Positions 9,588-13,030 of a stretch of DNA of 33,426 nucleotides are shown here, in pieces. The position numbers and the translations under genes are program-made. Numbering within the stretch: the stretch's first letter is position 1; every line of letters starts with the position of its first letter. The notes under the pieces are model-generated. The model was not told the origin of the DNA. It searched no databases and saw only the letters and a list, made by a program, of their open reading frames with translations. The stretch spans positions 1 to 33,426 of the forward strand of contig QHSP01000089.1 in assembly GCA_003220495.1 (NCBI GenBank), written 5' to 3'. Source of the stretch: Candidatus Rokuibacteriota bacterium (lineage in GTDB: Bacteria > Methylomirabilota > Methylomirabilia > Rokubacteriales > CSP1-6).

Positions 9588-9950
9588 ATGGCCACAATTC
9601 TCTACGTCGGTACCGCAGGCAGCGACGATCCCACGAGGGCGGGACTGCCATTCAATTTCGCGTTGGGCGCAGTCGAAGCCGGTCACCAGCCGATGATCTT
9701 TCTCGCTGGCGAAGCCGCCTACCTGATGAAGGACGATGTTGCCGGGGCTGTCATGCCCGTCGCGATGCCGCCGCTAAAGGACATGTTGGCAGCAGTGATC
9801 GCTCAGAGAGTGCCGATCTTCGTCTGAGGGAAGTGCTCGGTAGCCCGTGGGGTTACCGATGTGGATCTCAAGAGCAAGAATGCCCAGTTCATCACACCAA
9901 AAATCTTTGCCGAGAAAACCGCTGCAGCCGACAAGGTGGTGTCGCTGTAG
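9588..9950 (+). CDS. DsrE-family protein, putative selenoprotein (TGA 9825-9827 read as Sec)
   Basis: The frame from ATG 9588 (AAGGGGG at 9574-9580) encodes 79 residues starting MATILYVGTAGSDDPTRAG, a clear match to small DsrE/COG2044 sulfur-trafficking proteins, then meets TGA at 9825-9827 directly after VPIFV. Reading through gives GKCSVARGVTDVDLKSKNA and a normal C-terminus ending at TAG 9948-9950, total 120 codons. Family members have IYVCGACAKARGIT-like sequence here, so the TGA replaces the first cysteine of the CxxC pair, giving U80-x-x-C83. A 10-bp hairpin begins 9 bases after the TGA (separate entry). Stopping at TGA would remove the active-site cysteines and about a third of the fold. 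Role: probably persulfide or selenide transfer. The alternative is a nonsense mutation, but conserved coding after the TGA argues against it. Confidence 0.82.
9837..9859 (+). promoter_or_regulatory. Candidate bacterial SECIS hairpin in the DsrE-like gene
   Basis: TCGGTAGCCC (9837-9846) pairs with GGGTTACCGA (9850-9859), ten pairs including one G-U, closing a GTG loop (9847-9849). Nineteen bases separate the TGA from the loop, and the loop begins with G. Bacterial SECIS elements, which bind SelB just downstream of the Sec UGA, are known to have the loop about 16-37 nt from the UGA and a G in the first two loop positions; this hairpin satisfies both. Confidence 0.7.
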
Positions 9951-10048
9951 ATCCCAGACTCCTGTGACGCCGCGATCACGGCTTCGAGGTCGTGTTTGCT
10001 CAAGGCCTCGAAGTACCGACGGATGATATCTTCTTCTCGAATAGCCAT
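9941..10048 (-). pseudogene. N-terminal remnant of a SnoaL/NTF2-like protein
   Basis: From ATG 10048 leftward the frame begins MAIREEDIIRRYFEALSKHD and continues LEAVIAASQESGIYSD, resembling the first helix pair of SnoaL/NTF2-like proteins. The open frame runs on to 9803, but that part is antisense to the well-conserved end of the DsrE-like gene and loses any family likeness, so the real gene seems cut at about 9941-9951. It follows the LysR gene on the same strand and overlaps its 3' end by 49 bp; the LysR frame probably lost its own stop in the same rearrangement. An alternative is a short novel ORF. Confidence 0.4.
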
Positions 10049-10953
10049 GCATTCTTCCTTCCGCGCGCTGTCTCGTCGAGGAGCTCCATGAAGGCGCGGG
10101 CGCTCGCTGTGACCCTCCGCGCCTCATGGTGAATGACGTGGAAGTGTCGCTGAATGCGAACACCCCGAAGCCGCACGGCATTTAGTCGCCCGGCGGCGAT
10201 TTCTCCTCGCACCGCGTAGAGTGAAACAAACGCAACGCCCAGCCCAGCCATCACGCCTTGCTTGATCGCCTCGGTATGGTCGAGCTCCATCGCCACGCGG
10301 AACTTGACATGCGCGCGTTGCAGCGCGCGTTCCGTGACGCTGCGGGTCGCTGATCCTTCCTCCCGGACAAGCAGCGGCTGATCGGCGAGCGAGTCGGGGG
10401 CGATCGCCCGACGTCGAGCCCATGCGTGCTCGGGCGCGACGATGAGAACGAGTTCATCGCGCATTCCGGCCGTCAGACATTCCTCGCCCGGCCTCAGGGC
10501 ATGCCCGCCGACGATCCCAAGATCGAGCTCACGTTCTCTGACTCGCCCCTCGATGGTCTGAGAATTCGCGATCTGGAGCTTCACATCGACGCCGGGGTAC
10601 TTGGTCCGAAACGCCGCAACGATTCGGGGCAGTACGTAGAGCCCCGGAGTCGTGCTAGCCCCGATCAAGAGCGACCCGTGAGCCAAGCCATCCAGCTCAG
10701 CGAGCGCCTGGCGCGCGCCATCAACCGCTGAAACAGCACGCTCCGCAAATTGCTCGAAAACGCGGCCTGCCTCGGTCACGGTGACAACCCGCCGGCGTCC
10801 ACGACGGAAGAACAGATGCTTCCCCAGTTCGCTCTCGAGCTCACTGATGTGTTCAGAGAGCGTCGGCTGGGACGAATGGATCTTCTTCGCCGCCAGGCTG
10901 AAGCTCTTTTCCCGGGCGACGGCGAGAAAGACCTCGAGCTGGCGTAGTGTCAT
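10000..10953 (-). CDS. LysR-family transcriptional regulator
   Basis: A 317-residue LysR-type regulator. The N-terminal helix-turn-helix (residues 1-60: MTLRQLEVFLAVAREKSFS, then AAKKIHSSQPTLSEHISELE) and the periplasmic-binding-protein-like effector domain (about 90-295, with GSLLIGASTTPGLYVLPRIV) are intact. ATG 10953 follows AGGGAAA. It is divergent from the putative selenoprotein MBL gene at 11049; the 95-bp interval carries a TCCAA-N8-TTGGA dyad over that gene's -35 box, the usual layout for a LysR activator and its target. The last 20 or so residues (NAWLFEKKIS onward) look like read-through into a truncated downstream gene. The effector is unknown; the neighbours suggest a sulfur or selenium compound. 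Confidence 0.9.
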   Translation of the reverse strand: MTLRQLEVFLAVAREKSFSLAAKKIHSSQPTLSEHISELESELGKHLFFRRGRRRVVTVTEAGRVFEQFAERAVSAVDGARQALAELDGLAHGSLLIGASTTPGLYVLPRIVAAFRTKYPGVDVKLQIANSQTIEGRVRERELDLGIVGGHALRPGEECLTAGMRDELVLIVAPEHAWARRRAIAPDSLADQPLLVREEGSATRSVTERALQRAHVKFRVAMELDHTEAIKQGVMAGLGVAFVSLYAVRGEIAAGRLNAVRLRGVRIQRHFHVIHHEARRVTASARAFMELLDETARGRKNAWLFEKKISSVGTSRP

Positions 10954-11020: not shown

Positions 11021-11048
11021 CAAGCCTAGAACCTGAAAGGAGGACCCG

Positions 11049-11786
11049 ATGATTTTTCGCCACTTCCTGTCGCCAAAGACCGGCTGCGCCAGCTATCTGT
11101 TCGGCTGAGGGGGCGCAGCTGCCTGCGCTGTGGTGGATCCACAGCTCGATATCGAGCCCTATCTCGAAGCCGCCGCTCAGAAGTCCATGCGGATCACGCA
11201 CATCTTCGAGACCCACGTCCAGGCCGATCACCTGTCTGGCGCTCGTCGCCTCTCGGAAGCAACTGGCGCCCCCGTGATTTTCCACAAGTCGGCACCGGTC
11301 GAGTTCCCACACCTCAACGTCGAGGATGGAGAGCGACACGATCTTGGCAATGTGGTGCTCTCGATCCTCCACACGCCCGGACACACACCGGACAGCGTCT
11401 CGATTCTGGTCACGGACAAGACCCGGGCGTCGGAGCCCTGGTTTGTTCTGACCGGCGATACGCTGTTCTCAGGTGGGGTCGGTCGCCCAGACCTCATTGG
11501 CGCTGGCTCGGAAGCGATGCTCGCCGAACAGCTCCACGACAGCCTGCACAGCAAGATCATGACGCTGCCCGATCACCTCGAAATCTTTCCCGCGCATTTC
11601 GGGGGCGCGGCGTGTGGGAAAGGTCTGAGCGGTAAGCCCGGTTCCACGATCGGCTTCGAGCGTCGTTTCAATCCGGCGCTCCGGGCCGCCTCGAGAGCGG
11701 AGTTCGTGGACTTCGTGCTGAAGGATCTTCCGCCACAGCCCGAAGCCTTCGCCGTGAATCGCCGGCGCAACCTCACGGGCGAATGA
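11049..11786 (+). CDS. ETHE1-like MBL-fold hydrolase, putative selenoprotein (TGA 11106-11108 read as Sec)
   Basis: ATG 11049 has the strong ribosome site AAAGGAGGA. The frame reads MIFRHFLSPKTGCASYLFG, meets TGA at 11106-11108, and continues in frame with GGAAACAVVDPQLDIEPYLE to 11786: 245 codons. Cys homologues I know read ASYLFGCGG at this point, so the TGA replaces a conserved cysteine (U20). Fold motifs follow: T55-H-V-Q-A-D-H61, where Gln stands for the second His, HTPGHTP with H112, GDTLF with D137, AH183, and CGKGLSGKPGSTIGFERRF with C189. The ligands H56, H112 and D137 match the mononuclear iron site of persulfide dioxygenases. A GTG at 11130 could start a shortened protein, but it would lack the first strands and has no ribosome site. 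Stop and MFS start overlap (ATGA). Confidence 0.85.
11127..11145 (+). promoter_or_regulatory. Candidate bacterial SECIS hairpin in the MBL-fold gene
   Basis: GCTGTGG (11127-11133) pairs perfectly with CCACAGC (11139-11145) around the loop TGGAT (11134-11138). Twenty-five bases lie between the TGA and the loop, and G is the second loop base, both within the known bacterial SECIS rules. A competing hairpin, GCGCAG/CTGCGC (11113-11128), is closer to the TGA than the rules allow. Confidence 0.65.
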
Positions 11787-13030
11787 GCGAGATGCGGCTC
11801 GGACTGCGGGAGAATCTCCCGCAGTTCGCGCTGCTCGTCGTCCTCAATTCCTTCGTCGGCGCCATGGTGGGCCTGGAGCGGACTGTGCTGCCGCTTCTGG
11901 GCGAGCAGGAGTTCGGCCTCAGCTCGAAGACCGCCATCACGTCCTTCATCGTGAGCTTCGGCGTGACCAAAGCGATCATCAACCTCGTTGCGGCCCGTGC
12001 GTCCGACCGCATGGGCCGCAAGCCCATCCTGGTGGTCGGGTGGCTGTTCGCACTGCCGGTGCCCTTCCTGATCATCTACGCGCCGGCGTGGTGGTGGATC
12101 GACCTCGCCAACATCCTGCTCGGCGTAAACCAGGCGATGGCGTGGTCGATGACGGTGATCATGAAAGTCGATCTCGTGGGCCCCGAGCGTCGCGGACTCG
12201 CCTTGGGGCTGAACGAGTTCGCCGGCTACTTCGCGGTCGGCGTGGTGTCATGGGTGACCGGCTACATCGCCGCGCAAACGGCGCTGCGGCCGCAGCCGTT
12301 CTATCTCGGGATCGTCGTCGCGATCGTCGGCCTTGCCGTCTCCGTGCTGTTCGTCCGAGAGACACGCCCCTACGCATATCTGGAAGCGGCTGCTGTGCCC
12401 CAGACAGCGAGTAGTGTCCGGCCATCACTCGGCCACGTCTTTTACGTCACGAGCCTCGGGAACGTGAGCCTCTTCGCGGCCTGCCAGGCGGGCCTTGTGA
12501 ACAATCTCAACGATGGCATGTCCTGGGGGCTCTATCCCCTGTTCTTCGCCAGCTACGGTCTGGGCGTTGCCAGCATCGGCCTCGTCAAGGCGGTCTACCC
12601 CATGGTGTGGGGCGTTCTGCAGGTCGCGACCGGACCGCTATCGGACCGCTTCGGTCGAAAGGAGTTGATCGCTGGAGGCATGATCGTCCAAGCCGGAGGG
12701 ATCTGGTTGACCGTCCTCATCCCGACCTATGCAGCATGGTTGGCTGGGGCCGCGCTGCAAGGACTCGGCACGGCGATGGTGTATCCCACGTTGCTGGCAG
12801 CCATCACCGACCACGCGCACCCGACGTGGCGCGCGTCGAGCCTCGGCGTGTACCGATTCTGGCGTGACCTCGGCTATGCCGTCGGCGCGCTGCTCTCCGG
12901 TGTCGTCGCGGACCTCGTCGGGTTGGCGGCGGCGATTCACCTGGTCGCAGCGTTAACGCTCGTTTCTGGTCTTGTCGTCGTCCGGGCCATGGGAAGAACG
13001 AGCCCAAGGCCGATCCCCGCCCGCGCGTGA
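11783..13030 (+). CDS. MFS transporter coupled to the MBL-fold selenoprotein
   Basis: A 415-residue, 12-helix major facilitator. Motif A appears twice, as ASDRMGRKPILV (about residues 73-84) between helices 2 and 3 and as LSDRFGRKELIAGG in the second half. Its ATG overlaps the stop of the MBL gene (ATGA at 11783-11786), so translation is coupled and the two proteins are likely made together under LysR control. The substrate is unknown; the company of a persulfide-dioxygenase-like enzyme and a DsrE protein makes export of a sulfur or selenium product, or uptake of its precursor, a reasonable guess. An intact frame with no unusual residues. Confidence 0.88.
   Translation: MSEMRLGLRENLPQFALLVVLNSFVGAMVGLERTVLPLLGEQEFGLSSKTAITSFIVSFGVTKAIINLVAARASDRMGRKPILVVGWLFALPVPFLIIYAPAWWWIDLANILLGVNQAMAWSMTVIMKVDLVGPERRGLALGLNEFAGYFAVGVVSWVTGYIAAQTALRPQPFYLGIVVAIVGLAVSVLFVRETRPYAYLEAAAVPQTASSVRPSLGHVFYVTSLGNVSLFAACQAGLVNNLNDGMSWGLYPLFFASYGLGVASIGLVKAVYPMVWGVLQVATGPLSDRFGRKELIAGGMIVQAGGIWLTVLIPTYAAWLAGAALQGLGTAMVYPTLLAAITDHAHPTWRASSLGVYRFWRDLGYAVGALLSGVVADLVGLAAAIHLVAALTLVSGLVVVRAMGRTSPRPIPARA

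Follow-up and report, generated by a model that had tools for sequence, protein, structure and literature searches.

A CstB/ETHE1-type MBL-fold protein with a probable selenocysteine, encoded beside an MFS transporter gene in Rokubacteria

A gene in the 33,426-nt stretch of Rokubacterial DNA that we analyzed (contig QHSP01000089.1, hereafter the window) encodes, as we hold with good confidence, a metallo-beta-lactamase (MBL)-fold protein of the CstB/ETHE1 type into which selenocysteine (Sec) is inserted under the direction of a SECIS element. This protein, here called Sec-MBL, is most likely a mono-iron enzyme acting on sulfane sulfur by oxidation or transfer and associated with export by an MFS transporter. 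In the mechanism that we propose, SelB and tRNA-Sec would read the UGA at codon 20 as Sec, directed by a downstream in-frame hairpin, and Sec would replace a Cys that CstB-type enzymes and those of MBL-MFS operons keep at residue 20. The protein would most likely bind one iron through H56, H112, and D137 and oxidize or transfer the sulfane sulfur of low-molecular-weight persulfides, with C189 and Sec20 as presumed sulfur- or redox-handling residues, while the co-transcribed MFS protein would export substrate or product. Comparative sequence analysis gives the predicted Sec codon, the SECIS constraint, the machinery, the Cys/Sec exchange, the predicted fold, the putative ligands, and the MBL-MFS unit; it is from the fold and the ligands that we infer the name persulfide dioxygenase (PDO).

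A Conserved Reading Frame Is Interrupted by a Single UGA

The gene and its elements, all on the + strand, are as follows.

11036..11043, + strand: ribosome-binding site AAAGGAGG, 5 nt 5' of ATG 11049
11049..11786, + strand: Sec-MBL gene, CstB/ETHE1-type MBL-fold protein of 245 aa with predicted Sec20 (read-through translation)
11106..11108, + strand: in-frame UGA, putative Sec codon 20; TGA in 31/31 homologues, Cys in paralogues and CstB
11127..11145, + strand: putative SECIS hairpin of bacterial type, 7-bp stem and loop UGGAU, within the coding sequence

The read-through frame starts at ATG 11049, runs through 19 codons to GCASYLFG, meets the TGA, and continues with GGAAACAVVDP to the stop TGA at 11784-11786, so that a preliminary description of this frame, made from the window's letters alone, is accurate in its start, ribosome site, and extent. 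That description had proposed Sec at the TGA, and the same codon proves to be shared widely. In the 31 homologues that we extracted from Rokubacteria/Methylomirabilota (59-97% identity), codon 20 is invariably TGA, and TAA or TAG is found in none. All 31 have the 19-codon leader, which starts with ATG, or GTG in one case, and nearly all of their starts are preceded by a purine-rich, GGAGG-like ribosome site. More broadly, 64 of the 95 genomes of the phylum encode homologues of the read-through protein (E <=1e-30), and every full-length homologue with at least 59% identity has a single internal stop, which is always TGA. Codons 2-19 combine a high dS (0.93) with a pN/pS of 0.22, which indicates purifying selection and shows that the leader is protein coding in this frame.

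In a scan of genome contigs, TGA forms came from Rokubacteria only, with a pattern search that reaches close relatives only, while the non-Sec MBL homologues found in the same scan were mainly from Bacteroidota. Two assemblies (G049 and G053) hold the Sec-MBL gene in two copies each; since their estimated contamination is ~9% each, these duplicates may represent mixed strains.

A Hairpin Within the Coding Sequence Is Nearly Frozen

The hairpin consists of the arms GCTGTGG (11127-11133) and CCACAGC (11139-11145) around the loop TGGAT (11134-11138). Counted from the TGA, the distance is 18 nt to the stem and 25 nt to the loop; the perfect 7-bp stem and the loop are thus as given in the preliminary description, but the 25 nt quoted there is the distance to the loop. 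The structure lies just 3' of the UGA and has a G in its apical loop, as is usual for bacterial selenoprotein genes.

Conservation of this element is most evident at synonymous sites. The hairpin is formed by codons 27-32, where dS is 0.04, against 0.93-1.03 in the flanking codons and 1.03 downstream. GCT, CCA, and GAT are among the codons that hardly change there, although the rest of these genes varies freely. In the alignment of the hairpins 100% of the cells are paired, and the rare changes preserve the stem: one homologue shows a two-sided, compensatory T-A to C-G change and another a one-sided consistent change. That the hairpin fits the rules for bacterial SECIS elements had been proposed earlier, and comparison among the homologues agrees with this. 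A search of the 95 genomes with the pattern TGA-N18-GCYGTGGTGGAYCCACRGC returned 34 matches in 32 genomes, all at the MBL gene, while the reversed control pattern gave none in the same 95 genomes. Taken alone, the hairpin does not stand out in folding energy (z -0.9 to -1.5), so a single sequence is not decisive, and it is conservation that makes the pattern so. Likewise, covariation in the stem is weak when taken alone, 39 of 500 shuffles reaching the observed level, because the stem hardly varies; the RNA argument therefore rests on the synonymous-rate test. Cys paralogues with an AVVDP-like peptide use other codons, and in those examined no matching hairpin is predicted. Together, the synonymous freeze, the pairing, and the hairpin-free Cys paralogues are the signature of a putative SECIS inside a coding sequence. 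A scan of the window with Rfam gave no match at gathering thresholds, a result that is uninformative for bacterial SECIS elements.

These data bear on whether translation might instead terminate at the UGA, a functional protein of 218 aa being made from the internal GTG 11130. The GTG codons 28 and 29 are invariant in 31/31 homologues, and a plain listing of open reading frames yields the one starting at GTG 11130. However, both codons are invariant because they lie inside the frozen hairpin, and the 18 leader codons after the start evolve in frame as coding sequence. Moreover, in the structural model the truncated protein would have lost the two N-terminal strands of the sandwich, homologues from other phyla begin at residue 1 and have Cys at residue 20, and the internal stop is TGA in every case, TAA and TAG being found in none. 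We consider this reading very improbable. GTG 11130 is not the sole start, a case that the preliminary description had raised against its own proposal, given the selection on codons 2-19 and the conserved ribosome site, although some internal initiation at GTG codons 28 and 29 may occur besides that at ATG 11049. Since a standard call of the open reading frame starts at GTG 11130, annotations across Rokubacteria probably show the members of this family in truncated form.

The Genome Encodes the Selenocysteine Machinery

The 5.98-Mb assembly that holds the window has SelB (356.6 bits), SelA (591.4 bits), and tRNA-Sec together on one contig, as well as SelD, which has an in-frame TGA of its own. 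SelA, SelB, and SelD all score over their cut-offs, and SelA is found in 83 of the 95 genomes of the phylum. The machinery on which the earlier proposal depended is thus present in this genome.

A pseudogene, a sequencing error, or a UGA reassigned to Trp or Cys, with no link to selenium, might be considered for a UGA within a frame in data from a metagenome-assembled genome. Against this, 31 homologues from many independent assemblies agree, TGA is a normal stop that also ends the Sec-MBL gene itself, the genome has the full Sec machinery together with a TGA-containing SelD, and the SECIS-type hairpin is under strong synonymous constraint. The evidence from homologues, machinery, and hairpin refutes these explanations for practical purposes. 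By the same comparative evidence, Sec insertion at UGA codon 20 is near certain, and the predicted use of Sec at this codon extends to about 30 related genomes.

The Predicted Selenocysteine Stands Where Related Proteins Have Cysteine

The counterparts of Sec-MBL have Cys at the position in question, as had been expected from the Cys version SYLFGCGG given in the preliminary description, which occurs literally in the Burkholderia and Microvirga homologues. Residue 20 is Cys (TGC or TGT) in 23/23 MBL-rhodanese paralogues of the phylum. A longer MBL paralogue in the same genome (a 469-aa frame) likewise has Cys at this site, and the genome's Sec-MBL is 53% identical to its Cys MBL-rhodanese paralogue. 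Residue 20 is also Cys in CstB, where it aligns with Sec20, and in all seven homologues from cultured bacteria (Acidithiobacillus, Acidiphilium, Cytobacillus, Burkholderia, Microvirga, Azotobacter, and Thiothrix), most of them from MBL-MFS operons. In more remote homologues the residue is Ser, Asp, or Asn, which makes Cys/Sec a trait of the subfamily formed by the CstB-like and MBL-MFS members.

In a first tree the Sec forms lie on one side of a branch (support 94/87), and when the Cys forms of the MBL-MFS operons are added, Sec and MBL-MFS forms cluster (90/88). These trees favor a single origin of the Sec form, but not firmly, and the MBL proteins of the MBL-MFS operons are likely the Cys orthologues of Sec-MBL.

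The Predicted Fold Is That of CstB-Type Enzymes, with Sec20 Probably Far from the Metal

Sec-MBL has Lactamase_B (Pfam, 2.8e-13) as its sole domain. Its best sequence matches to solved structures are 3tp9 (2e-49) and 3r2u, that is, CstB (2e-43), followed by ETHE1-type enzymes of M. xanthus and human. The AlphaFold model (pLDDT 92.5) superposes on 3r2u and 3tp9 with TM scores of 0.92-0.94. Consistently, its VIA Z scores are 37.4 for 3tp9 and 35.9 for 3r2u, against 32.5 for hETHE1 and 23.6 for glyoxalase II, and the top VIA rows are all of PDO type or MBL-rhodanese proteins (Z 28-37). The persulfide-dioxygenase-like character assigned earlier is therefore upheld for fold and ligands, but the nearest characterized relatives are of CstB type rather than ETHE1 or Blh, as then suggested.

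The iron of ETHE1 is bound by three motifs, HxHxDH (through its first His), PGHT (His), and GD (Asp), which give the triad H79/H135/D154. H56, H112, and D137, which like H183 are invariant in 28 Sec rows of the alignment, match this ligand set, and so the mono-iron triad appears to be intact in Sec-MBL. The second His of HxHxDH is replaced by Q58 in 25 of the 28 Sec forms, unlike in ETHE1 and CstB. C189 aligns with Cys201 of CstB, a residue reportedly (in work attributed to Shen et al. 2015) enhancing thiosulfate formation. In five plasmid-encoded MBL homologues (L132, L133, L134, L135, and L139), D137 is replaced by His and H183 by Ala, so that their metal site is unlike the one in persulfide dioxygenases.

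In the secondary structure of the model, Sec20 ends a strand (residues 13-20), and the opposite strand (residues 25-29) leads to Asp30, whose position we take to be beside the metal in MBL folds. Sec20 is thus probably ~16 Å from the metal, as estimated from secondary structure, a distance that speaks against direct participation of this residue in catalysis at the iron. With this modeled placement, Sec20 would more readily serve as a relay, as a redox switch, or in protection than in chemistry at the iron itself.

Might Sec-MBL then be a redox switch or a sulfur/selenium relay instead of a dioxygenase, its metal chemistry being secondary? Sec20 would accept sulfane sulfur or selenium from a partner, for example the DsrE-like selenoprotein described below, and pass it on, or would form a selenenylsulfide with Cys26. 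The position of Sec20 at the end of its strand, facing strand 25-29, would suit this, and 22/28 Sec forms have Cys26, against 0/18 non-Sec rows, although the class-level relatives L038-L040 and L043 are without it. In Azotobacter, moreover, the operon is shared with genes for DsrE, rhodanese, and methyltransferase, and D137 and H183 are lost from several MBL-MFS homologues, which means that the activity of the operon may not be dioxygenation. On the other hand, the ETHE1-type triad H56/H112/D137 is invariant across all Sec forms. We regard a relay in place of a dioxygenase as conceivable but somewhat doubtful, and a mono-iron enzyme acting on sulfane sulfur as the better reading.

Sec-MBL Forms a Unit with an MFS Gene and Lies near a Second Selenoprotein Gene

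Three neighboring genes are relevant here.

9588..9950, + strand: DsrE-like selenoprotein gene, TGA codon 80 at 9825-9827; Pfam DsrE 4e-12
10000..10953, - strand: LysR-type regulator, divergent; NF040786 241.7 bits, cut-off 250
11783..13030, + strand: MFS transporter, Pfam MFS_1; 4-bp overlap (ATGA) with the MBL stop

The MFS gene is probably translationally coupled to Sec-MBL, and an MFS homologue adjoins Sec-MBL in 28 of the 31 homologous loci. Most of these loci also have a LysR gene upstream in divergent orientation. For the LysR protein of the window the best NCBIfam model is the selenium metabolism-associated LysR (NF040786), just below its cut-off. Further along the window, between 14972 and 27646, a gene cluster encodes a three-part RND efflux system of metal-export type together with a P-type ATPase, a c-type cytochrome, and a MerR regulator.

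The DsrE gene lies 1.1 kb upstream of Sec-MBL. Its product reads VUGKC, the TGA taking the place of the first Cys in the CGxC of its counterparts, and the TGA is followed by a strong hairpin of its own (z -2.66). DsrE homologues containing TGA occur in 28 of the 95 genomes of the phylum, some of them with two TGA codons. Adjacency of DsrE and MBL within Rokubacteria is restricted to the same genus; a general Rokubacterial operon of the two was considered and rejected, since other relatives have no DsrE gene or have it at a different locus.

The neighbor of the MBL gene in cultured bacteria, where MBL and MFS are mostly paired, is a regulator of ArsR type; the two such regulators tested by Pfam both have a rhodanese domain. 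A compact operon, apparently an uncharacterized sulfane-sulfur or metalloid system, is found on a plasmid of Azotobacter salinestris (L136, 1429-5404), in the order ArsR-type regulator, DsrE, MBL, MFS, rhodanese, and methyltransferase. Its DsrE-MBL-MFS unit is an all-Cys operon, and its MFS protein is 58% identical to that of the window. This shared DsrE/MBL operon makes it plausible that the two selenoproteins of the window belong to one sulfur-handling system. The preliminary description had taken the occurrence of two TGA genes within 2 kb as an argument against chance; the Azotobacter operon lends weight to the association, while the linkage in Rokubacteria is local to one genus. We tentatively propose, as a distinct possibility, that Sec-DsrE, Sec-MBL, and MFS form a selenium-dependent sulfane-sulfur operon in which Sec20 would be a second redox or relay center, off the iron.

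In a class-level relative (L101), an arsenite methyltransferase-like gene with an in-frame TGA (WTA-TGA-IGGAL) lies ~1.0 kb 3' of the Sec-MBL start, and from its sequence is probably another selenoprotein gene beside Sec-MBL.

The neighborhood also raises the question whether the substrates of the operon are selenium, tellurium, or arsenic species instead of persulfides, the MFS protein then being a metalloid exporter. The LysR protein's best model, the metal-efflux-type RND, P-type ATPase, and MerR genes of the window, the ArsR-type regulators adjoining plasmid MBL homologues of acid-mine bacteria, the SAM methyltransferases in two operons, and the ArsM-like gene in L101 would agree with such a role. 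However, the rhodanese domain of the tested ArsR proteins points to sulfane-sulfur sensing, the closest solved relatives of Sec-MBL are CstB-type, and DsrE and rhodanese are sulfur-transfer proteins. Metalloids as the substrate are thus unlikely, and we retain sulfane sulfur.

Comparison with Known Systems

If an operon with Sec20 as an off-iron relay is confirmed, Sec-MBL would be the first PDO-type selenoenzyme. The MBL fold is one of the largest enzyme superfamilies, and none of its members was found among the listed prokaryotic selenoproteins, which are mostly thioredoxin-like or redox-cofactor proteins. The Sec/Cys pair in one genome offers a direct test of the contribution of selenium to persulfide chemistry and also bears on why CstB-type enzymes keep Cys20, probably far from the iron.

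That this might be a new type of selenoprotein had been suggested in the preliminary description, and published lists agree. The 119 prokaryotic selenoprotein families compiled in a 2026 review (PMC13188914) include a DsrE-like one (UxxC) but no MBL-fold or persulfide dioxygenase family, and a 2022 list (PMC9312934) has no MBL-fold family either. No NCBIfam selenoprotein model matched Sec-MBL, and searches for literature linking MBL or metallo-beta-lactamase with selenoprotein or UGA, or Rokubacteria with selenoproteins, found nothing related. A groundwater assembly of Methylomirabilota has been predicted to have 63 selenoprotein genes (Deng et al. 2026, cited in PMC13188914), and the Sec-MBL gene may be among them, unnamed.

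Other models of MBL proteins fit poorly. The Blh model NF040641 scores 59.6 bits against a cut-off of 625, and glyoxalase II GloB (TIGR03413), whose dinuclear HxHxDH is not present here, 90.1 bits against 200.8. With ETHE1 and the bacterial type I PDOs (4chl, 4ysb), Sec-MBL shares the fold (Z about 32) and the mononuclear iron triad at 26-33% identity, and to our knowledge Sec does not occur in that family. The MBL-MFS operons of Acidithiobacillus, Acidiphilium, Cytobacillus, and Azotobacter have the same MBL-MFS order as the Sec-MBL locus (MBL about 49-51% and MFS 40-58% identical), but they have Cys20 and an ArsR(-rhodanese) regulator rather than LysR, and several are without D137 and H183. 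The cysteines of PDOs are reported not to be generally conserved (PMC6060420).

The closest system is CstB, from Staphylococcus (3r2u) and with an Alicyclobacillus relative (3tp9), to which Sec-MBL is 34-40% identical over its whole length with the metal ligands aligned, and which is likewise found beside an exporter gene. In contrast to CstB, Sec-MBL is a single MBL domain of 245 aa that ends before any C-terminal rhodanese; it has predicted Sec instead of Cys20 and, in most members, Gln for the second His of HxHxDH, and it is accompanied by LysR rather than CstR and by an MFS rather than a TauE-type exporter. Like the listed selenoproteins, Sec-MBL combines a UGA, a bacterial-type SECIS, and Cys homologues, and we place it in a known enzyme family, as a new variant with Sec.
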